A program made the translations under genes and the position numbers. A stretch of 64,000 nucleotides of DNA, from assembly GCF_963675165.1 (NCBI RefSeq), contig NC_087383.1, forward strand, positions 4,246,979 through 4,310,978, read 5' to 3'. Below are positions 1 to 53,367 of the stretch, in pieces. The stretch is from Halichondria panicea. Taxonomy: Eukaryota; Porifera; Demospongiae; Suberitida; Halichondriidae. The notes beneath the pieces are model-generated. The model saw nothing but the letters and a program-made list of their open reading frames with translations. It was not told the origin of the DNA and ran no database searches. Each line of letters starts with the position of its first letter. Positions within the stretch are counted from its first letter, which is position 1.

Positions 1-727
1 AAGCTAGCTGGCTATACCGGTGTCCTTGTCTCTAGATTCCTTTTTCTTTCCTCTTATTGTCGATAGGTGTGGTCAATAATACTGAACACACCTACTATTC
101 AATAAGATATAAAATTTCGTGGGTATAAATTTTCGCGGTACAGGCTCTATCCGCAAAAACCGCGAACATTTATACCCTCGAAATGTACCCGCTATACGGT
201 ATTTAGTGCACGTGGGCGTCTGCGCATACGCAGAAGATAAACATGCCTGTGCCCATGGCAACAGCAGGTAATTGCGCACGCGCATAAAGGGACAGAGAAA
301 ATGGCCAAGCCAAGGTTTCTGATAATAGAGGTTCTACTGTATATCCAAAACAGAACCGTTTTTGTAAATACAACAAACTATAATACCGTGCCGTACTGTA
401 CGTTATGGTAGTAGGGTTAGTGGTACATAATCATAGTGATACATGATGATTGTACAGACATACATGTATACAGTACAACCCACACAGCATTATAGTTTTA
501 GTCAAACAGTGTGAACACAACTACATACATAAATTGGTACAACGTAGTTTTGCTGACCTTGCTGTTAGCTGCACAAACACAGAAGATGCGTGACTCAAAA
601 CAGTACAGCTGCAACAGCTGGAATGTCTGCACAGGAAAACCATAGGGTTAGTGGTAATCTATCACATGACAAAGTATGGCTGGCCTTAGAGGTTTAACTG
701 CAATACGAGGATTTCAAAGATGGTCTC
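1..727. other. Left-edge non-coding stretch
   Basis: No gene is recognised here. It lies downstream of the 3' end of the ZNF106-like gene. Around 112-205 there is a degenerate copy of the miniature repeat whose end reads ACCCGCTATACGGTA (see 36939-37151). The rest is AT-rich with short TACATGTA-type palindromes. A short antisense reading frame at 73-285 overlaps the repeat and is not considered coding. Confidence 0.5.
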
Positions 728-3700
728 TTAAGGAACTCTATAGCACCGCAAATTTTTGTAGATCAGAGATCTCTGACATTTTGTTACCTTTGACTAAGGC
801 TAGATTTACGATAAACACCATGGTGACAGTACTCTAAACTCGTAATATAATTATGTACTGAGCATGTCTATATGCAACAACATATGCATATACGCACCTT
901 TATGTCATAGCAACGGATGCGCTTGTCGAAGCCGCCAGTGATGAGAACTCCACCCATCACATCCACACACGTCACAGGAGTCTTGTGTTCTAGCTTGCGA
1001 GACATAGTCCAATCCTGTATAGTGTATGTGTTTGTTTGGGGGGTGGGGGAGAGTATATTACTGCTTGGCATTATCGACCACTTCCGAGTGTCACAGAACA
1101 AATTAAAGTACGTACCGAAATGCACTTGAAATTCGTTATACAGGAAAAAGGGAAAATTGTGGAGTCACTCTCGTTGTGACTACTGAAGTTAATGCTTATG
1201 CTCAAGAGACTACTGATTATACTGTACACCAACATAAATTTCAGCTCTAGCTACTTACGTACGTACCGTACATGTACATACCTGTGTGCTGTAAATGTAC
1301 AGTTGACCATCACCACAGCCAATAAAAAGGTGATTACCATGAATCTGTGTGATGAAAGAAAAATTTAAGTCAATATTGCACCTCCATATTAAATACGTAG
1401 CAAGATCAATAAGCTTATTGTCGTTTCAAGTACCCAGGGATGCATGTGCCCACACTGGTCGATGGTGGTTGGTATTAACCACCTCTAGCCAAACATTAAT
1501 TACCGCCACTAAACAAAAAACAATCATGTGTTAAGGCCTAGTTTAATTACTACATAAAAGAAAGGCAACTTTGGGTGTTGTCGAATTGTGATCAGAATTG
1601 AAAATAACAATCACTTTTCCAATTGCATCTAACCTTGACACAGAGAGGTGTTTGTGGTAGAGCGAGTGCCTTCACGCTCTTGAGGGCAGACCTGTCTTTA
1701 CCAAAGGTCTGGCGAATATCCCACACCGAGACTAAGTTATCAAAGGATCCTATATCGTGCGTATGAAAAATGCAACAACATTTGTATCATTAATTTAGGG
1801 GAAGGGAGGGTACACTTGGGAGCTAATTAGATACATAGTGTTGACAGTGTATACACAGTGTACTACACTGTACTTCCAATATATTTACTGCACGTACGTA
1901 CAAGTACAGTCATATGATATTCGGGTCACTAAGGTAAGCTACACTAGATCAAATCATGTAAAAATGTTCTCACCCCCAAATACAGTCATTCAAGTCACCC
2001 AAATTGCATACACAATCATGATGCAATTCAAACGTGACCATAGAGGCACCCACTAGGAAAAACCTTTGATATGCATTCTCACACTATCTTTATAGCGTGT
2101 GATCTCACCCGTAACGAGCAGGTGCTGGTGCACACACATGTTGCTGATGCGGCTCTTGTGGATCTGCTTTAGGTTCAGAAACTCCTTCTTTGCCTGGAAC
2201 AAAGTGTGCACTCAAAATAGACAACGCTTTTCTCCTAAGTACACGACAGCAAGCGTAATAATTTTTCTACAGAAGCCACGATAATTATAAACAACAGGTT
2301 TTGAAATCTATATATTAATTTTGGATGTGTGCTCATGCATACAAAACTTCATCATCATTATAATTGTGAATGTATGTACATGACGAACGACTACACTACC
2401 GTAACTCACTGAGAGGTCGACAATTTTTACCCCTCCGCTGACAACAGCAATTATGAGCAGATCCCCAGTCACTACTACACAGGTCACATGATCTCCGATG
2501 CTAAACTGGGCCACTTGTTTACGCTTCTATAAGATTAGGAGAAACAAAAATTATGGTATCACACTGGCTACTAGCTTGTATGGTAATTATACAAATGTAA
2601 TGTACGTGGAACTGATTGAACAATTAAACTCTTCAATGTTGCAGCACAATGAGTATTGTTATCACCCTTCATAATTATTACAGTTAGCTAAAAGTAACCA
2701 TAGAACACTGATGTGTTTTAATCTGTGCTATTTGATAGTCACCGTTGGTCTGCCCAAGGTCTCATTGTACAACATATGTAACGTATAATCTGACATGATA
2801 CGACATACGTATTGTAGAGAGCATGCGTATATTACACAAGCAAAACAGACTGTTAAAGACTTCACCTCTACATTGTACATGTGCACCATTTTGTCACTGG
2901 ACCCCGTTATTAGGTACAGGGTACCTTCTTGTTCATACACCTGCAGGAAAATAGATGTTTTACAGCTAGCACATCCACAACAGGTTCCATTTACATAAAT
3001 ATTCATTTTAGCCTCTTACGCTTGACTGAGTATATGCAAAGGCATCCCCAAACCTCGTATGCACTCACAGCTATTGAGTTGATGGCTCTCTCGTGATAGG
3101 AGGGGAGTCTAATGACCAGCTCTCCAGTAGTGAGTTTGTACACATGCAGTGAGTGATCAGAGGAACCAGAGAACAGGTAATCTCCACACACCTGCGAGGA
3201 GAAGGACCGAGCGCTAAGGCCACTCATCAAAGAAAACACAATGTACACTTGCATGTACGTACGTGACTGTATGCATAATAAATAATGAATACCAAAACCT
3301 TGTTCACTACAGACAGGTACAAGATCGAAATCAAAGAGGTTTAATCGAGTTTTAAATATGCTAAAGTCTAACTTTAGTCATGGAGGTGCCTCAAATGACA
3401 CGTTATATACATTATACACATGTATTGTCGTACTTTTCGGGGGCAAAACTTTCGTGGTTTTCGTGGCTGAACATCTGAGCACGAATATTTTACCCACGAA
3501 CGAAGCGATCATTGACTACCTTTACCTGCAGTGCAAGCAGCAACCACGTATAACTGACTAAAACAACCACGAATGTTTTGACCCCTGGAAATACGGTATT
3601 TAGGTGATGAATAGGATCCGCATGTAACTGTACATGACATCAATAACTATTATAGTTAATATGCAATAAATGTGACATTGTAGGAGAATTGATAGGCACC

Positions 3701-6700
3701 AATACATGATACATGTACATTAAGGTGTATGTAATACAACATTAGTAGCATGAAATTTCGTGAGGTGCAAAAGTTTGTGTTTTTTGAGGGCAGAGCAGTT
3801 AGCGTGAAAATTAAACTCCCACGCACCGGTATTTCATATGCAAAGTTCTTGGTGGGTGTGGTTTCATGGAATTGAACCGCAAATATTACAACCCACAAAC
3901 ATTTCTTCTGAGGGCTCTCGAGCCAAATAGGCACCAGCGAACATTTCCCGCTGTACAGATTTTAGAACTTCTTTAACACAATTTAAATATTAGAATTGCC
4001 TTCACATACATGTTAATCATACATACCTTGAGGCACAATATTGACTGCCTGTGTGGGGTAAGCATCACACTCCCAATCTGATCATCCACAGAGTCAGCAC
4101 AACCGCCTTGAGAGTCGACCACCGCCATAGACTCAGCACTTGGAGTGGTATCAGTGTTAAGAGATACTTGTTCTGAGGTGCTTGCTTCATCTAAGCCAGG
4201 TGATTTAATGTTCTGTGCCGTGTTGGTTAGGCTGTGATTCGATGAGTTGTCAACGGCAACGACAATAGACTCAGAATTGCTTACAGTTGCGACTGTCGGC
4301 AAGTTATCAACACTCACTACTGAATCATTTTGTTGAATTGAGGAGGTTGGAGCAACTTGAGAGGAAGATACTCCTGTTATTGTACAATTATTATTGCTCG
4401 ATGTACATGTAGTCGTGACTTTTGTGGTTGCATGTTGGTCTTTTCCATTCACATTAGCTAGGACTTTTTTGGCACTGGAAACTGACTTTACGAGACGATC
4501 TATTTTGTTGAGTACGGCTGTAGATGTTGTCACAACTGTTTTGGAAGTGTCACATGACGAGGTAACGACAGTGTCGAGACTACGTGCATTGCTAATAGTC
4601 GTGGAATTCTTGCGCGCATTCTTGGAAGTACATGTAGTACGAGATTTCTCAGACGACTGGCTTTTTCTGTGAGCGTTGCTGGCACAAGGTTTCGGCTTGT
4701 CATTCACAGCATTAGGATTCGACTTGTATTTGGGATTTGGTTGTTTTGTAGTTGAAGCATTTGGTAGGAAAAAGTCTTCTTTTCGTTTCAAAACATTCTT
4801 ATAGCTCTGGGCCAGCTACAGAAGGTATGTGGCAGGTTCATACACATGCAACTAAAGGCTTGTATAAACTGATAACGATTTACCGAACCGCAATATCGAA
4901 GGAGCAGCCGTAAACTATATCATAGTAACTATTGTACATTCATGGGTATGCTTACAACATGTCCCCTTGATCGAAAACAACTCTCATTAATCATAGCTTG
5001 CTGAAACATTATACAATTACGTCACTTACACGTTTTTCTTTTTTGGCTAAATCCTCTTCTATATTCTTTGTATTCTCAATGACTTTATTCTGATCAGACA
5101 GAGCTTTCTCTTTCGCAATAACGTTTGCCATGACAGTGGCGAGCTCGTGTTGCTAAGGAGATTGATAAATATATCTATAAAAAACATAATTATAGGTGGA
5201 ACTTCAGTGGCCGGGGGGTAGATAGTAAAAAATATACTAGAACATTTGTTATACAAAATGTACATACATGCAGTAACACAATTCTTACCAGCTTTTGAAG
5301 CTCCGTTTCCAGCTGTAATGGGCAACAAAAGTGCAATTAAATATATACTATAACCGCCATGATGCTTTACTTGATCAGTATATACAAACATGGGTACGTT
5401 GTGCATGTAACAATCCTACCCAGCTTTTACATGTAAAATATAGGAGATGCTTTGTAAAGATTTACGCTACACACCTCTTCAAGGGTCTTTGTCTGCTCAA
5501 TTTTCAACAATGAAATCTCAGATTTTGACTTCTGCAAGGCAATCAAGTCTTCTTGCTGCAGGAAAATACATGACAATAAACCTTAGGATTGTTATAAATT
5601 TACAATGTACGATCGTATGAAGTAATTCAACAGCACCAACAGTGTATTTGCATTATTATACACAGGATTACACTTACAATTTTTTTCTCTTGATTGTTCA
5701 GAGCTTCCACTGAGCTGCTGAGCAGGCTGAGGTCACCACCACTACTAGGTGTAGGACTCCTATCACCCAACTTTGCCTTCTTTGCAGTTGGGGATTTAGT
5801 ACCATCCTTTAGTTGCGGCTTCTTTTTTGAGCCCACGTCATTTGACGTGTTCAAATCGTTTTGGCAACCACCTTTAGGCCCACTTTGAGCTGCATCATGG
5901 TTGTTTGCATCACCATTGCTACTGCTTCTCTGTTTGTCTTGAGTAGGACAACTTGATTTCTTTTTGTGGGTTTGTTGCGAATTTTTTCTGGGGCGCTTTC
6001 TGTTCTTCGGCTTATTAGACAATGAAATTTCAGCATTTCTATTTGTTAAATCAGTACGAGATCCAGAGTCTACTAATTTGGTTGGATTATTCTTTGAGTG
6101 TTGAGGGTCTCCAAACAAGATGGGCCTATTATTACTGTCAGAGAGAGTGGTGATCGAGCGCTGGGAGACAGTGGACTGAGTGGTCGCAGTATGAGGGGGA
6201 GGGACATTCGATAAGGGCAGTGGACTTGTACAGGGAGGTGTGGTATGGGTGTGGTCCAATCTTTAGAATAAATAGTGCAATAGATAACCTACTATAATTA
6301 TTATAAGTGAAAGAAAAGGGCAGCTACATGTACATACATGTATACAGTTACAATATACACGTACATGTTTGTACTGTACCTTCAGAGCGAAGTGAATTTT
6401 AGAAGGAAATTATCTATACAACAATCATGTACCGTACAGTGGTAAATTTTCGTGAAGTGCAAAATTTCGCGTTTTTGAGGGCAGACAGAAGACGCAAAAA
6501 TTAAAACTCCCAGTATTTCACATGTAAAGTTATTGGTGGGTGTGATTTCCTGGCATTGAAACGCGAATATTAGAACCCACGAACATTTCTGCTGAGGGCT
6601 CTGGAGCCAAATAGCGAAAATTTGCATCCACGAAAATTTCACGTGCTCACTTGTACAGTCTGAGAGCTACGAGGAAAGGCTTATCAAATATGATTGTACA

Positions 6701-9992: not shown

Positions 9993-10300
9993 AGACTAGA
10001 CATCTAGAGCTAGCTAGCTATGTCTAAACACACAACCACACATATACATGGTCGTTCCAACAGAAAACTTGACCTCTACAGCTAAATACACGGCCGGTGG
10101 TAGCCTCGTCCCAGGCCGAGTTTTCGCTTTTATAACGGTTAGGCGAATGTTTGCCTAACCGTTATAAAAGCGAAAACTCGGCCTGGGATCGAGGCTAGGC
10201 CGGTGGGTGCACGAATACTCCAAAGTACTTTGACCTCTAGAATAAATAAATTCTGTGCATGCATACAATTTAGCGGCTGGCTCTGTCTTATAGCTTCATA
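9993..10300. promoter_or_regulatory. 5' flank of the ZNF106-like gene, with a micro-palindrome inside
   Basis: This is the presumed promoter region upstream of the ATG at 9992. It contains the 97-bp palindromic insertion described at 10101-10197. I see no clear TATA box or other regulatory motif. Confidence 0.4.
10101..10197. mobile_element. Micro-palindromic element A (97 bp, TSD GGCCGGTGG)
   Basis: A nearly perfect hairpin begins TAGCCTCG and ends CGAGGCTA. Its arms contain CCCAGGCCGAGTTTTCGC and AAAGCGAAAACTCGGCC, with a loop of about 8 nt. It is flanked by perfect 9-bp direct repeats GGCCGGTGG at 10092-10100 and 10198-10206. It has no coding capacity. Confidence 0.9.
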
Positions 10301-10310
10301 CTCCTCCTCC

Positions 10311-11322
10311 TACGGTGGCCCTGAAGGTCACTCAGCAGTTGTGTTCTCAACTTGTTGAGTTGAGCCTTCGCTAGTTGAGTGATCGCTAGTTGAGCTTCGC
10401 TAGTTGAGCCTTCGCTAGTTGAGCTTCGCTAGTTGAGTGATCGCTAGTTGAGCTTCGCTAGTTGAGCTTTCGCTAGTTGAGCCTTCGCTAGTTGAGTGAT
10501 CGCTAGTTGAGCCTTCGCTAGTTGAGTCTTCGATAGTTGACGACCTTTGACCTATGGGTGTGGTTTGATGCACTAAAGGTACGTACATGCAGGCAAGTGG
10601 CAAGATCCAAGCTTTACAATGACAGTAACAGCACTACAGTATATTTATCAAGATATATAGATATAGACAACAGCTATAGTAGTATATAGAGCTACAAGAC
10701 AAGTTGTACAGAAATACAGGCCATAAATTATGGCCTGGGCATAAATACTATTGAATATTTCATGTTCTGTTTTGTGAAGTTAGTGAAATTACTCAAAGAA
10801 GAATATTACTCAAAGAAGTACTCATGACAATGTACGTGAGAGCAACTCAATAACTATTCGATAAACAAAAGAGCAAGTGATTTGACTGATGAAGATGTGT
10901 ATCAGGTTGCACAATGAATACCAGATGAGAGAGATCTACAGGTTCACTATAGTTGAACTCTTCTTACTTCACTTCAGTGGCTAGCCAGCTAGCTATTCTT
11001 GATCTTGCAAGCTGCTTCTCATTAATAATTATGGTCTCGCTTGCTAGGTAGCTAGCTGCGGTTACCAACAAACCCCACCCATACGTCAACTGTCGAAGAC
11101 TCAACTAGCGAAGGCTCAACTAGCGATCACTCAACTAGCGAAGACTCAACTAGCGATCACTCAACTAGCGAAGACTCAACTAGCGATCACTCAACTAGCG
11201 AAGCTCAACTAGCGAAGGCTCAACTAGCGATCACTCAACTAGCGAAGGCTCAACTAGCGAAGCACAAGTGCAGAACACCAAGTTGAGAACACAACTGCTG
11301 AATGACCTTCAGGGCCACCGTA
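10311..11322. mobile_element. 1,012-bp foldback (MULE-like) element with tandem-repeat arms
   Basis: The terminal inverted repeats begin TACGGTGGCCCTGAAGGTCA and end with its complement. They continue inward into arms of tandem 14-15-bp units (CTAGTTGAGCCTTCG alternating with CTAGTTGAGTGATCG, about 10331-10540; the complement at about 11090-11275), which together could form a large hairpin. The middle of about 550 bp is unrelated AT-rich DNA. Direct repeats TCCTCCTCC (9 bp) flank it at 10302-10310 and 11323-11331. A long inverted repeat with a 9-bp duplication fits Mutator-like elements, but the duplication is low-complexity and no transposase is present. Confidence 0.78.
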
Positions 11323-11331
11323 TCCTCCTCC

Positions 11332-12152
11332 TTCTATATAGCAGAGTCTTACAAGTTAATGGTGGCTGGTATGAAGAATAGTGGCTAGAGTCTACAAGTG
11401 CTGGTGGAATGAAGAATGGAATGGTGGCTACAAGTTCTGGTGTGAATTAGAATGGTGGCTGATTGTGATTTTGAAATGGATGTTCATTAATTGAGTGTCA
11501 TGACGAACTTTGGTATCTATACAATAGAGCTAGTGCTCATGATCCTTACCAGTACATGTATATATGGACTTTTTAGCGTCAGATTTTCTAGAAAACTTAA
11601 GTTATGTTCCTTTCCTTTGGTTTGCCCATGCTCTAAATGTCATCTATAGGCTCCTGAGTTTTGCTCTGTTTACCACTCTAATCACTCTATATCAGCTGCT
11701 CCAATATTGGAGTAAGTCTGTCAGCTATTTACTTATTCACCCAATTTTTAAAGCCTACTCAATTTCTTTTGCAAAGCTGTTTCACATGAAATTATAAGAT
11801 CATTATAGCCATGCATGCAGTGCCACCAGTTTATATGAACATGATTCAAATGACACATTAATAAGTGCATGCAGCATCAGCAATTGCGATAGCACACAAA
11901 TAGTTTATATACTGACACGTGTTGTCACAACTGCAAACCAATTAATGATCATTGCATCCCTCTGGATTGGATTCGGAGTTAACACACAGATATATATATA
12001 TGATGCTAGTGCTGCTGCCTAATGAGGAACACAGTCAATCTGAACCTACTCACTCACCAGTCAGTCAGCAGGGTCTGAACTGAATCATTCCCATTTCAAC
12101 GGCGGCCTAAAAACGAGGCTATTACTCCAAAGGTCAAAGTACTTTGGAGTAT
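11332..12152. other. Repeat-bearing non-coding stretch
   Basis: Imperfect tandem GGTGGCT/GAAGAATGG units lie at about 11360-11465. A 77-codon frame at 11564-11797 (plus) encodes a strongly hydrophobic peptide; with no relative, no splice context and AT-rich surroundings I do not call it a gene. Nothing else is recognised. Confidence 0.45.
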
Positions 12153-12161
12153 TCCTGTGTT

Positions 12162-12219
12162 TAGCCTCGAATCCACGCCGATTAAAATACGTATTTTAAT
12201 CGGCGTGGATTCGAGGCTA
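12162..12219. mobile_element. Micro-palindromic element B (58 bp, TSD TCCTGTGTT)
   Basis: A perfect palindrome runs from TAGCCTCGAATCC to GGATTCGAGGCTA with the centre ATTAAAATACGTATTTTAAT. Perfect 9-bp duplications TCCTGTGTT lie at 12153-12161 and 12220-12228. Its core is the same as that of element D. Confidence 0.93.
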
Positions 12220-12246
12220 TCCTGTGTTTAGCTTTGTGCCTCCTGG

Positions 12247-12294
12247 TAGCCTCGATTCCAGGCCGCTTGTTCAAGCGGCCTGGAATCGAGGCTA
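12247..12294. mobile_element. Micro-palindromic element C (48 bp, TSD GCCTCCTGG)
   Basis: A perfect hairpin has arms TAGCCTCGATTCCAGGCCG plus a few bases, and a centre CTTGTTCAAG. Perfect 9-bp duplications GCCTCCTGG lie at 12238-12246 and 12295-12303. It sits only 27 bp from element B. Confidence 0.93.
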
Positions 12295-12539
12295 GCCTCC
12301 TGGGTACTGCGCAGAAGGTCACGAAGAGAGAGTTACACCATAGATGATACAGTACTGACGTGGATGTGAAACGGCCTAGTATCCGGAGGGGTCCACGGGA
12401 ATTGTCTGAAGCTATCATTGTAACGAGCAGATTATGTTAGAAACCCTGTAACTGTCATGTTTAACTGTTTATATAGCAACCAGAGCGTAGTAAACAGTGT
12501 TCCGTGTCTGAAAACTGGTGAAAATGACCGGTGTCATAA

Positions 12540-12668
12540 AATTTTGGGCCCCCCCATGTTTAGGCCCCCCCCCCCCGGGCCTAGAATTTTAAAATTTTGG
12601 GCCCCCGGGCCTAGAATATTAACAGTTACGCCCCCCAGGGGGCCTAAACTGTTAACATTCTAGGCCCC
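12540..12668. repeat. Nested G/C-tract palindromes
   Basis: Runs of C (up to 13) alternate with self-complementary blocks: CTAGAATTTTAAAATTTTGG, GGGCCCCCGGGCC, and an interrupted palindrome of TTAACAGTT...AACTGTTAA around GCCCCCCAGGGGGC. It lies inside the Ginger-type element just after its left end. Function is unknown; assembly errors in such tracts are likely. Confidence 0.6.
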
Positions 12669-12706
12669 CCTCTTTTCTGCAGGAACAAAAAGCGCTTACG
12701 GACTTA

Positions 12707-12884
12707 CTATGACTTCTGGCTATTAGCTGACTTATCTATGCTGCATGATACTAATGGACAAAGCAAAGGGAGTGCTATGACACTATGACTTCTGGCTATT
12801 AGCTGACTTATCTATGCATGATACTAATGGACAAAGCAAAGGGAGTGCTATAACACTATGACTTCTAGCTATTAGTTATCTGTG
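12707..12884. repeat. Tandem repeat, about 75-bp unit, 2.4 copies
   Basis: Successive copies start CTATGACTTCTGGCTATTAG at 12707 and 12783, and the partial third at 12856 differs by one base (CTAGC). Each full unit contains CATGATACTAATGGACAAAG. It lies upstream of the integrase exons and could be a subterminal array of the element. Confidence 0.85.
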
Positions 12885-12961
12885 AACCCTCACCTCAGAT
12901 CCTGTCAGAGAGTGTATAAAAGTAGCAAATATGTTAGCAGGCATGTTACTAAATCTATACC

Positions 12962-13674
12962 ATGGAATCCAAAAGTGAAGGAAGATTTACCTTTGAAGTT
13001 ATTCATGCTCTCATAAGCAGGAACGAGTACCCTTCATCCTTTAGTAAAGAAGACAAGCGTTCCCTGAGGCGGAGAGTTAAATGCTTTGATGCAGTGGATG
13101 GAGAATTGTACTATGTTGGATCTACCCGTAAGAGACAGTTGCCATAAATTACCTAGATATTATACATAATTATAGTTATCGCTATATATTTGTGTCTACA
13201 TACTGTTACATGCAGTATTACATTTTCAAAAAAGGTGATGAGAAGAGGCTTGTTGTGGAAGACAAGGAGCAGAGGAAAAGGATTATAGGAGCAATCCATG
13301 ATCCAAGTCATATGGGAGTCAACAGAACATTGGACATGATCACAGCCAAGTATTACTGGCCTGGTCAAACAAATGAAGTCAAAGAATATGTAAGTGAAGC
13401 CGGACTTAGCCTCGATTCCAGGCCGATTAAAATACGTATTTTAATCGGCCTTGAATCGAGGCTAAGCCGGACTTTACTATAGTATTTCTTTTAGTGTATT
13501 TGCATGATCTACTTATTTCTTATAGGTGAAAACATGTACCAAGTGCCAGTGTACCAATCCTAGACTACTAAAACCAGCATCGACTCTCCACCCAATACCA
13601 GTGACACCAAAGGTTTGGCATACAGTTGGGATGGATTTGATTGGCCCTTTGACAGAGACACCCAGGGGCAACAA
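12962..13674 (+). pseudogene. Gypsy-like (GIN1-type) integrase fragment, three exon blocks
   Basis: Block 1 starts at ATG 12962 and contains the N-terminal module of GIN/Ginger integrases (RSLRRRVKCFDAVDGELYYV). Block 2 (13216-13389) has the H2C2 zinc-binding region: IIGAIHDPSHMGVNRTLDM with YYWPG. Block 3 (13526-13674) has the CTKCQ half of the finger and the start of the DDE core (WHTVGMDLIGPL, GNKYVIT) with its first aspartate. Blocks 2 and 3 join in frame with good GT-AG signals. The strong donor of block 1 (CCC-GTAAGAG) is out of phase with block 2, and nothing of the core's later acidic residues is seen. It is therefore a decayed integrase. Human GIN1 is the domesticated relative. Confidence 0.72.
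13407..13464. mobile_element. Micro-palindromic element D (58 bp, TSD AGCCGGACT)
   Basis: A hairpin from TAGCCTCGATTCCAGGCCG to CGGCCTTGAATCGAGGCTA has one mismatch between its arms and the same ATTAAAATACGTATTTTAAT centre as element B. The 9-bp duplications AGCCGGACT at 13398-13406 and 13465-13473 are perfect. It is inserted just after the donor site of integrase block 2, so it arrived after the Ginger-type element. Confidence 0.93.
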
Positions 13675-14865
13675 GTATGTCATAACGCTCAAAAATTAAT
13701 GCTACGTTCTTATTACAACTACAATTATGATTTCTATCAATAAGTTCACACGTACATGTACATGTCATTAACTTTCCAAATTGCAGTGTTGTCTTTCGCT
13801 GAGCTAAGATATCAATTGCCAAATGTTAGCTAATTATACTATCAAGTGAAATTTATCCCAGGACCTACTCGAGTGCTACTTCTCTAGGCAACACCATCGG
13901 TGAAGACAGCATTAACGTCCAACCTCTTTTCAAGTGCCGTGTATCTACACTTGTATAGGAATTTCAAACCGGCAAGTTGGAATGTGTCTCTCTCACAGCC
14001 ACTTCGTAAACGATCAAGAAACAGTTTATCGTGTACTATAAATTAATACTCTCAAGACTATTATAATATTAGCATGTACACGTACACGTACACGTACAGA
14101 TCATCAACACTTTCACCCGTTTGCTTATCTCATGCTAGTGTTATGAGTCAGCCACACTTCTTTTGATCTACATGCATGCTACCAACATTGAGTGGCTTGC
14201 TTTTTGGATATAATTACATGGGTACAGGGGTAGATCTACTATAAAATAATAATTATAGACTATTTACTAGACTAATTATAGAATAGTTAAATCTTGCACT
14301 GGACTGTACTTCCTCTACTCATTCTACCTCCTCACAGTCACTACTACTGTCTTCGCTTAATACACTTGCAGCATCAATATCCTTTCTGTTAATACATAGA
14401 TTCTCTTTTATCTGTCTCTGGCCAGTTCTGCCAACTCACTTACACAGCTGCTTGGTATAACCTCGATAATTTCCTCGGCGTTTATTTGGATCAAATTGCC
14501 TAATTTACGGAAACTAGTAAATTACCTCGGATATGCCCGTTACTATGATAGCTTCAAGCAGAATACCGGAATCCGGAAACGTTTCACATCCACGTCAGTA
14601 CTGTATCATCTATGGTTACACCTTGACAATTCGCGCACTTCTCGCTCGCAGATCTTACCATCTAGCAATGGAACTGAGAAGCTAGATATATCACAACATT
14701 ATAAACAAAGAGCTAATATGCTATAATGTGATTTAACCTATTTTTGTTATTGCCTTTGCACTTAGCTTCATTGGTTATTATTTTGTTAAGCTCTTATCTT
14801 GGTGTAGAGGGATTCTAGACACATGCTAGACAAATATTAGCTAGAGACAGGCTCCTAGCTATAGG

Positions 14866-14906
14866 TAGCCTCGAATCTAAAATTAATCAGCCTGGAACCG
14901 AGGCTA
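14866..14906. mobile_element. Micro-palindromic element E (41 bp, TSD AGCTATAGG)
   Basis: The ends TAGCCTCG and CGAGGCTA match the family, but the interior is only partly complementary, so it is an older or internally changed copy. The 9-bp duplications AGCTATAGG at 14857-14865 and 14907-14915 are perfect. Confidence 0.85.
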
Positions 14907-14915
14907 AGCTATAGG

Positions 14916-30523: not shown

Positions 30524-30905
30524 TCAGTGCTCTTTGATGTGAAGTTAGCCAACAGATGTGATCAATAAATCATTTACCAACTGGCAAGCTACATGTAGCT
30601 AGGTTAGATATTCTGGGCTAGACTCTGCATCTGGTGTGTGCAGTATTTTTATAGTGCATTCGCATTGAATTGTAGCCGCAATGGCCCAACCGAGGCTAAA
30701 ATTAATATTGACAATTTGCAAGACACGCCCCTTCAGAGCCTTTGATCGAGTAGCCTCGAGACGGCGTGGTCTCGAGGCTATTGATCGAGTGGCTGATTTT
30801 GAGCTCTCAAGACAATACCAGTCACGTTCACCTAGCCTGTACTGTAAAGCTAGCTAGCTGTACAGTAGTACAGTCGAGTCTAGTACACATGGTACAGTAG
30901 GATCG
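30524..30905. promoter_or_regulatory. Shared head-to-head promoter interval, 382 bp
   Basis: It separates the start codons of the giant gene (minus, 30523) and the GKAP1 gene (plus, 30906), so both promoters must lie here or overlap. It carries micro-palindromic element F in its middle. I see no clear TATA box. Confidence 0.55.
30751..30780. mobile_element. Micro-palindromic element F (30 bp, TSD TTGATCGAG)
   Basis: This is the smallest copy: 13-bp arms TAGCCTCGAGACG and CGTGGTCTCGAGGCTA around a tiny imperfect centre. Perfect 9-bp duplications TTGATCGAG lie at 30742-30750 and 30781-30789. It lies in the interval between two divergent genes. Confidence 0.9.
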
Positions 30906-47180: not shown

Positions 47181-47984
47181 CATATTAAATAAAAGGTATA
47201 CATCGACATGAAACAGCACCCTTCCCTTGCCTCCCTGTCTAACCTGTCTCTTTACTTTAGCCGACAGCCCACAGCTTCTTTGACTCATAAAAACCAATAG
47301 TGTCAGTCTGTCACTGTTTACGTGTTCCATCATTTCTTCCTCTATACTATCTATGGTTCCATCATAGATCTACATGCATATGCTTGCAACTGCTTCCATC
47401 AGTTCAGTTCAATTTTAACTTGTTTTCTTAATGATCTTTACCAATATCGAAACTCAGAGATTTCCTTGTTGAACATGAGGCCTGTGAAGGAGGCTACTAT
47501 ACATCTCATGTGAGTACACAATTCTTTATCTCTACACCCTAGATTGCATTCTCTCTTTTCGTGCACTTCAACAAAGATATAGGAGTTATTTGATGCACTA
47601 CCATACCTTATACATCTAGGTCTACCCAATTTACTATAATTACATGTATAGTAAATTATATATAGTAGGTCAACTTGATTCCCAAGATCAACACCTACAT
47701 AGCAGTTGCATTAGTACATGGTAAACAGTTACTTATGATATCGTAGCAGGTTATTTTCGTATGGTGAAAATGTTTGTATTGCGTATCACATCCGAAATCC
47801 GAAATTTATCTAGCTCAATAGGTTCTATGTCAATCTATTCTGCAGTATACTGCATGCATGCATATAGTTACTAGAATAATGTCATTCAATGGAAATGTGG
47901 GCAGGGCCATCTAATGCGCATGCTTACAATGTACTGCTGAGGAAAAGTGATGACCTTTTTTTTAGGTAAAAGTTCATGTTATTC

Positions 47985-51804: not shown

Positions 51805-53367
51805 TCTAAGAAATAAAGAGCTTTGTTAGAGTTATTACGTGCATATATACAATTTCTGCGTATGGTTTTCTTTCAATGTTTTTATAGCAAACTGATAGAT
51901 AACTGTAATTCTAAATATGTGACAGGCTCTGGGAAAACCAGACTATTGGAGCAGACTAAAATATGTGTGATTAATGTACCAAATAATAGAGCAGAGCATT
52001 GCCTACACAATGATATGCTTAGTGTTCACATACCTAGTTTCATACCCGAGTCATGCACGTTGGAAACTCGAAGCCGTAAAATGTAGTATCGAGAAAAACG
52101 ACTCTCAAAGATTGCTTAATTAGGAAAAATAAGGTAATAGCGAAACTTTGGACGAAGCGTTTCGATGGAAAGAGTTGGATTTAGAGCATCAGATTTTACA
52201 GAGAGGTAGTAGAAGGACTGTAGATACTTATACATCAATAACATTTTATTTGAGATTTTATACTGTTGGCATAAATTTAGCTGTAGCTCAATACTAAATT
52301 CTGCTCCAATAGTCTGGTTTTCCCAGAGCCTGTCACATATGGTAGAGTTTGTACAAACATGGCCAAGCCTTAATTTTTTAAGCTTTAAATTAGGGGCAAA
52401 AATATAATTATTGTAGTAAACTTTCAGTTAATTTATTGCTTAATTGTCACTTGCAAGGTATATATATCTATCATATAGACCTAGGTCTACGTACGTGTAG
52501 TCTAGAGGGTATGTATTCCTGTAGAAGCCTTGCATGTACTAGAACTTGGAAAATGGTTTTGATGGCTTTAGGTGACTTTGGCTCCACAAAAACATTGAAT
52601 GGCTGAACACATTATACAGCGATAGCATTTGTATATCTAGTGTGCGCATTAGAATTGAGCATGGAAAGTAGAGAATTTAAATGCAGCTAAATGGCGTTGC
52701 TATCAGTAAAAAAGAAACTGTTTAATTTGAAGACCCTGGCTTAGCATCTGCTAACCACCCTAGCAATGGAATACAATGAATGTTAGTGCTGTGAACCCTT
52801 GAAAAACAAATCCCTTGTCCTAGCTTTATACAAGTGTATCAATACACATTGTACTCCACAACGGAACTCTAGCTAGCTGCATGTTACCAAAAATTAATTA
52901 AATTCCTATCGGGCTCTGCACTACACTCGGTTGATTGGTGAAGGTCTCTCGATCAATAAATCGAAGTTATGATCAATTGGCTGGACACTGTATTTACAGA
53001 CACTGAACGTATTTGGGCTCAAAGTGATGTAGCATATCTACTTTATACATCTACTTACAAGTGTAAAATAATGACAGAGAGCAGTGCGCACCCCCCAACC
53101 AGCAGCAATTGCAACCGTGTTTGTCAAATAGTTGGTACTTTATAACCCTACTCTCTGTCATTCACCTTGGGGCTCATGCAATCTCTGCATCTTTACCTGT
53201 ATGTTGAAACACTATAATTATTATGGCTTATATTCTAGATATCACAAAGTTACACCATAAATTATAGTGTCTAAATGTATCATTCTGAGCACAGAAATCA
53301 GTGGTTGGCCAATTGCAAATGTCCGATTTATTGCAATAGGAATTTGAGGTTGATTTTTGATCAGCAG
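51805..53367. other. Intergenic stretch with one inverted-repeat element
   Basis: It contains the element at 51918-52337 and a shorter inverted pair AATGACAGAGAG...CTCTCTGTCATT at about 53070-53162. No gene recognised. Confidence 0.45.
51918..52337. repeat. MITE with 37-bp perfect inverted ends, 420 bp
   Basis: Both ends carry TGTGACAGGCTCTGGGAAAA-CCAGACTATTGGAGCAG in opposite orientation (51918-51954 and 52301-52337) without mismatch. It is flanked by TA on both sides, consistent with TA target duplication (Tc1/mariner-like) but not proof. Confidence 0.85.

Follow-up and report, generated by a model that had tools for sequence, protein, structure and literature searches.

A family of very short palindromic miniature transposable elements in the sponge Halichondria panicea

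Introduction

The window analysed here, a 64,000-nucleotide stretch of the genome of the sponge Halichondria panicea (contig NC_087383.1, positions 4,246,979 to 4,310,978), contains six very short elements with the ends TAGCCTCG and CGAGGCTA, each flanked by an exact 9-bp direct repeat that differs from one element to the next. In this work, we characterized these elements, their copies elsewhere in the genome and the longer elements bounded by the same ends. Places displaying these ends and duplications are confirmed as transposon insertions, and they constitute a new family of miniature inverted-repeat transposable elements (MITEs), a kind of element already known, whose unusual traits are its size and its palindromic form. 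Most copies measure 30–100 bp, and many are near-palindromes.

Short elements in the window

The initial annotation had reported six elements with shared ends and perfect, differing 9-bp duplications, and all six were found as described, with sizes of 97, 58, 48, 58, 41 and 30 bp; the size range that it gave, 41–97 bp, fits the five elements clustered between 10101 and 14906 and omits the 30-bp element at 30751. When the window was scanned for these ends, at a distance of 26–1300 bp, with at most one mismatch and flanked by an exact 9-bp repeat, these six elements were the only ones returned, and the same scan with 194 shuffled 8-mers as ends returned no match.

The largest element (10101..10197, 97 bp) lies between copies of GGCCGGTGG at 10092-10100 and 10198-10206, and forms a long inverted repeat whose arms are offset by one base, since a base is missing near the left end. 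Comparison with the terminal inverted repeat (TIR) of a 1.1-kb element found elsewhere in the genome (L095:769-1861; numbers with L denote fetched loci) indicated that it consists of two arms of about 47 bp of that 1.1-kb family, joined together. Two further elements share the core GATTAAAATACGTATTTTAATC, in agreement with the subfamily proposed for them in the initial annotation. The first (12162..12219) is a perfect 58-bp palindrome with AATCCACG on both sides, assigned to lineage III of those described below, and is duplicated at its target as TCCTGTGTT (12153-12161 and 12220-12228). The second (13407..13464, 58 bp) has one mismatched pair and the outer types ATTCC and ATTCAA of lineage I, with AGCCGGACT at 13398-13406 and 13465-13473. 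It is located 17 bp past a GT that follows an exon encoding an H2C2 integrase domain (13228-13389, PF17921, E 9e-12), and thus within a putative intron. An inverted-repeat pair (12305-12380 and 14560-14640, delimited by eye) brackets the integrase-like region containing this element, and is possibly part of a larger transposon.

Between these two, the 48-bp element at 12247..12294 has one mismatched pair and is flanked by GCCTCCTGG (12238-12246 and 12295-12303); its core, GCTTG/TTCAAGC, resembles by eye that of a 65-bp palindrome (L062) lacking a segment between CTTG repeats, the outer bases being different. The remaining elements are a decayed 41-bp copy with seven mismatched pairs (14866..14906, AGCTATAGG at 14857-14865 and 14907-14915) and the 30-bp copy with two mismatched pairs (30751..30780, TTGATCGAG at 30742-30750 and 30781-30789).

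Copies across the genome

The genome-wide search proposed in the initial annotation was run on 131.5 Mb in 39 contigs. It returned 754 places with the two ends separated by 10–40 nucleotides (elements of 26–56 bp) and 801 with a separation of 41–101 nucleotides (57–117 bp), part of the latter being chains of neighbouring ends rather than single elements; the reversed pattern was found nowhere. The first 75 sampled elements, all on contig C1, come from the first part only of these 754 and 801 places: 34 of the 50 listed in the shorter class, once 15 copies of a repeat-borne 50-bp form and one 28-bp copy were excluded, and 41 of the 50 listed in the longer class, once seven chained matches and two others were excluded. 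The sample was extended with 20 more 47-bp forms, so that 25 of the 38 places with this form were examined overall, and with 19 of 50 listed places of 34–44 bp, partly picked for looking alike. Exact ends were required for counting target-site duplications (TSDs), which excluded L124, L125 and L129, and the resulting 111 elements were reduced to 83 distinct sites by merging copies with a shared flank.

A TSD of 8–10 bp was present at 62 of these 83 sites, exact at 51 and with one mismatch at 11; the exact ones comprised 46 of 9 bp, four of 10 bp and one of 8 bp. When left flanks were paired with right flanks of other sites, a TSD was obtained in 5 of 6806 combinations. The initial annotation had named a lack of 9-bp duplications in most copies as an argument against mobility; within the sample, 56 of the 83 sites have one with at most one mismatch. 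TSDs were observed in every size class: 9 of 16 sites of up to 40 bp, 6 of 8 of 41–46 bp, 15 of 20 of 47 bp, 6 of 7 of 48–57 bp, 11 of 12 of 58–59 bp, 5 of 6 of 60–90 bp and 10 of 14 of 91–120 bp. The 46 exact 9-bp duplications display a weak symmetric preference, with G in first position in 24 and C in last position in 25. As is characteristic of MITEs, the elements are short and non-coding, have terminal inverted repeats, generate TSDs of near-constant length across the sampled sites, and occur as many copies in homogeneous subfamilies.

Two repeat-borne forms were also observed. A 50-bp element occupies an identical position inside a larger repeat in the two copies that were read (L014 and L018, flank CTCGCGCTCATG, TSD with one mismatch), and seems to hitch-hike on that repeat; the five sampled copies of a 28-bp form correspond to one site only, likewise inside a larger repeat.

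Empty sites and insertion into other transposons

Several insertions could be compared with paralogous sequences lacking the element. A 52-bp element inside a copy of a Merlin transposon (L100) is flanked by CCTTTTCGG on both sides, and another Merlin copy (L094) is empty, with a single CCTTTTCGG and 99.4% identity over 159 bp. Elements of 58–59 bp in L047, L049 and L050 have an empty paralogue in L100 (about 96% identity), the 57-bp element of L003 is missing from the paralogues L001 and L082, and the 1093-bp element of L095 has an empty counterpart in L096 with 100% identity. Two empty counterparts are located in the window itself: one at 52862-52963 for a 1.1-kb copy in L103 (about 84% identity), and a weaker one at 47828-47958 for the 65-bp element of L062, where the 9-mer is not exact. 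Overall, family elements were found inserted inside Merlin elements, Mutator-like elements (MULEs) and copies of their own family. Since the 9-bp duplications differ from site to site, paralogous sites are empty and other transposons have received insertions, these sequences are mobile DNA; the TSDs at 62 of 83 sites, together with these empty sites, uphold the initial proposal of a single family whose members have genuinely inserted.

The dispersed palindromes might instead be regarded as conserved functional sites, such as protein-binding or architectural motifs, that are not mobile at all; in this regard, Mutator TIRs are reported at placozoan chromatin-loop anchors in part of one study (PMC12221973). 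Site-specific duplications, empty paralogous sites and insertions into other transposons all demonstrate mobility, however, and render this explanation extremely improbable, whereas a function gained after insertion is possible.

Two arrangements depart from simple insertion. In L003 (2254-2373), elements of 57 and 36 bp stand in tandem with three copies of the 9-mer GCAACTTCC, and the MULE sisters L001 and L082 contain only the 36-bp one; this arrangement may be due to an insertion precisely at the TSD already present or, alternatively, to unequal recombination. In L140 (C2:5182607-5182741), a 35-bp element lies between inverted copies of one flank, and its sister copies, L139 and L141, have normal TSDs; L140 is an inverted duplication centred on the element.

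Longer members of the family

Long elements with the same ends were found in loci fetched for other reasons, including a member of 1093 bp (L095:769-1861, TSD CACCACCGG) and one of 516 bp (L084:2357-2872, TSD AGTAAATGG). The 1.1-kb element has 85-bp inverted repeats in L095, and no open frame longer than about 100 amino acids was found inside. A search with its interior gave 498 candidate copies, and the 40 that were scored all displayed 99–100% identity. Its copy number is estimated at about 350, because the TIR junction occurs 346 times in forward and 347 times in reverse orientation genome-wide (at most three mismatches). Among the 100 matches listed for the exact junction, which extend as far as C3, 91 lie on C1 (18.1 Mb) and one on C2 (8.6 Mb); the TIR with a different interior and no mismatches was seen at a single place among the matches listed, C22:42486. 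In the long copies with both ends visible, a TSD of 9 or 10 bp was present in 11 of 13 (L095, L101, both copies of L103, both copies of L104, L106 and L108-L111). L103 contains two separate copies, in L104 one copy lies within another, and the 1.1-kb copies of L101 and L102 each contain an additional segment in their interior.

The long ends follow a common plan: an outer part beginning TAGCCTCG, in many cases TAGCCTCGATTCCAGGCC, is separated by a spacer of variable length from an inner block (GGCCTGGTA with GCATGCG or GGGCGTG). This plan was derived from seven selected ends, namely both ends of L095 and L084 and the single ends L008:5836, L003:6506 and L094:3931, whose partners were not seen; in these, the inner block GGCCTG(G/T)T with GCATGCG or GGGCGTG starts 28–54 bp from the tip. 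The outer motif CCAGGCC is exact only in both ends of L095 and the right end of L084, and L008 lacks it; in three other single ends (L082:274, L089:5979 and L114:198), the inner block was not visible by eye. The 97-bp element of the window and the class of about 100 bp retain, at each side, the outer part and spacer known from the 1.1-kb element and lack everything else. A 105-bp class consists of two different arms joined; one arm agrees with the right end of L084 at 51 of 51 bases. Given that the same ends bound elements of about 1.1 and 0.5 kb, we regard the short ones as MITE-type derivatives in preference to a self-contained class; the initial annotation was right that these elements are very small.

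Superfamily and search for a transposase

The elements were compared with the main features of DNA transposon superfamilies. Mutator elements and MULEs have TSDs of 8–11 bp, mostly 9 bp; the TSDs in our sample fall within this range with the same predominant length, and the full-size members have long TIRs (85 bp in L095). hAT elements have 8-bp TSDs, and here one exact 8-bp site was found versus 46 exact 9-bp sites. CACTA/EnSpm elements have 3-bp TSDs and CAC ends, versus the 9-bp TSDs observed here. The duplications of 9 (8–10) bp suggest a Mutator-like enzyme, and with considerable confidence we consider the family to be one of MITEs that depend for movement on a DDE-type transposase acting in trans. 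This enzyme would make staggered cuts of 9 bp, sometimes 8 or 10 bp, and would most likely be of the Mutator/MULE type.

The initial annotation had also called for a full-length element with the same ends and a transposase. For this, 36 transposase loci (23 of 31 PF10551 hits, 6 of 26 PF20700 rows and 7 of 24 PF12762 hits) were fetched and inspected for TSD-flanked TAGCCTCG ends, and no autonomous partner was established among them. Of the 29 MULE/Mutator loci, only L082 has a MULE between family ends (274-5506), with TAGCCTCG at one side, a one-mismatch end at the other and an exact 8-bp repeat, GCAATAAT. This MULE carries CGCTGTG ends and a 9-bp TSD (AAAGTTTTA) of its own, and is therefore read as nested in a family member. 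A second candidate, L138, has family ends 7.5 kb apart and a tnp2-like gene, whose PF02992 match (E 1.3e-6) falls slightly short of the cut-off for that protein family. It was rejected on similar grounds: the broken tnp2-like gene belongs to a separate 6.6-kb CACTA-type element (L138:837-7415, CACAGGG ends, TTA duplication) nested in a 1.1-kb copy.

Mobilization by a non-Mutator transposase that also makes 8–9-bp duplications, of the Merlin group or of an undescribed one, was considered as well, given that the genome contains Merlin genes (24 PF12762 hits) and that no MULE among the fetched loci has the family ends as its own. We regard it as somewhat unlikely, as the Merlin-type loci with a best general end pair (L094, L095, L098-L100) display other ends and 8-bp TSDs, and the mixture of 9-bp, some 10-bp and rare 8-bp duplications resembles that given for the Phantom/Mutator family Tm1 in part of its description (PMC3169594).

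The smallest mobile form

The exact 58-bp core was found at 57 places among the 100 of 194 matches listed, from which about 110 places are estimated genome-wide. Some copies share flanks: nine sampled elements correspond to seven distinct sites, six of them with a TSD, and both window copies have one. Outside the core, certain pairs of outer sequences recur, namely ATTCC/ATTCAA (lineage I), AATCC/GAGACC (lineage II) and AATCCACG on both sides (lineage III), same-type pairs occurring too; such recurrence is expected of lineages that spread as units. The window element at 12162 is identical in all 58 letters to a copy at C1:5517306 (L078), and the one at 13407 to a copy in L080, with a different exact TSD in each case.

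The smaller forms present another picture. Those of 34–44 bp are highly varied (50 of 188 places listed), and 15 of the 51 distinct forms below 58 bp correspond to one sampled longer near-palindrome minus a single internal segment (orientations merged; 17 of 55 if kept apart), some of the lost segments running between direct repeats of 2–4 bp. The 47-bp form, found at 38 places, lacks one particular 11-bp segment, located between two CG dinucleotides. Since this loss is combined with several different outer pairs, in either orientation relative to them, the form arose repeatedly. Nevertheless, one 47-mer is identical at five distinct TSD-bearing sites and another at three, so that part of the 47-bp copies may themselves have been mobile.

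All these deletion-like features would also fit a history in which only the long members (1.1 kb, 0.5 kb and about 100 bp) transposed, every form below about 60 bp being an in-place relic of centre deletion or imperfect excision that kept the original TSD: the variety of the 34–44-bp forms, the forms explained by loss of one segment, and the repeated origin of the 47-bp form count in its favour. On the other hand, independent deletions would hardly produce an identical 58-bp core at what we estimate to be 110 places, with asymmetric outer pairs that recur, and no element longer than 59 bp with the arms GCCGATTAAAATAC was present among the 50 listed places of 57–117 bp; one 84-bp element (C1:1498815) has only GCCGATTA in common with the arms of the 58-bp form. 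Because of the shared core and the recurring outer pairs, an in-place origin of the 58-bp form is less likely, and we consider the relic history as a whole rather unlikely.

In view of the shared core and its recurring outer pairs, set against the deletion-like smaller forms, we take only the forms of at least 58 bp to be moving units, the 58-bp palindrome being the smallest of them, and many forms below 58 bp look like the products of later deletions at palindrome centres. The sequence of events would be as follows. A DDE-type transposase supplied in trans would make staggered cuts of 9 bp, at times 8 or 10 bp; internal deletion of everything between the spacers would yield near-palindromes of about 100 and 58 bp containing the outer parts only; the 58-bp palindrome, at least, would then be copied to many places; and post-insertion deletions at palindrome centres would give rise to many forms of 28–52 bp inside the original TSD. 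More tentatively, elements of 47–58 bp, which comprise little besides two ends of about 19 bp and a palindromic core, might themselves have transposed below the presumed minimal size for looping the two ends of a duplex together, being handled as a cruciform or hairpin or in a loop-free manner, with the outer part of about 19 bp as a complete end.

Several observations weigh against this account, that is, movement by a Mutator-type enzyme down to a 58-bp unit. Among the 36 fetched transposase loci, no gene has TAGCCTCG ends as its own, and the MULEs with identified ends (L003, L081 and L082) have 9-bp TSDs and other ends. No TSD was found at 21 of the 83 distinct sites, nor in two long copies, L102 and L138 (only 8–13 bp of flank for the latter). 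Further, the sequence shared letter for letter by the largest number of TSD-bearing sampled sites is a 47-mer and not a 58-mer, and no longer parent of the 58-bp form with the same arms was found; such a parent is possible among 87 arms that run on differently, whose interiors are mostly unread.

Relation to known transposable elements

Compared on the general features of Mutator/MULE MITEs, the family resembles TIR-MULE derivatives in being non-coding, in its inverted ends and 9 (8–10)-bp TSDs, in having a longer member with 85-bp TIRs, and in its many near-identical copies. It differs from them in that no MULE transposase is tied to its ends, in its very many copies of 30–117 bp, and in a common small form that is a 58-bp palindrome. 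Foldback elements have inverted arms able to self-fold, as do the elements described here, whose arms are nonetheless short and displayed no tandem subrepeats. In root-knot nematodes, the Mutator/Foldback (Phantom-like) family Tm1 has TSDs of 8–10 bp, mostly 9 bp, in 45 of 53 elements (PMC3169594). Tm1 shares with the sponge family this predominant 9-bp length, composite inverted ends and MITE-like members, typically below 0.5 kb; it differs in its end sequence, in a putative transposase and in tandem repeats within its ends, and the passages on Tm1 in that source describe no equally short members. The internal eliminated sequences (IESs) of Paramecium provide another parallel, being very short transposon-derived DNA of at least 26 bp putatively handled by a DDE-type enzyme, according to part of one report (PMC3464196). 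The enzyme that excises IESs is a domesticated piggyBac one, however, and their sizes follow a periodicity of about 10 bp (PMC3464196); here, TSDs are of 9 bp and no empty size range was apparent by eye within 34–44 bp (50 of 188 places listed).

The initial annotation did not recognize the family from the literature, and our literature searches by end sequence and by topic likewise turned up no description of it, Repbase and Dfam being outside the comparison. Among the cut-and-paste transposons that we found described, none seems as small as the 58-bp form. For bacterial cut-and-paste transposons, an in vivo minimum of 64–70 bp is given, and for IESs a loop-free assembly at 26–30 bp with loops from about 45 bp has been proposed, both in part of the same source (PMC3464196). 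If the 58-bp palindrome is a moving unit, it lies below that bacterial minimum and would constitute a natural test of minimal transposon size and of the need for a DNA loop; the family also prompts one to ask how a transposase would pair two ends separated by only 58 bp. In addition, the many copies with a deleted centre can each be recognized as an insertion from the TSD, and together they represent a natural record of palindrome instability.

Apart from these elements, the window contains tandem GAGCTTCGCTAGTT-like repeats at 10330-10540 and 11100-11290, which by eye are in inverted arrangement about 600 bp apart.

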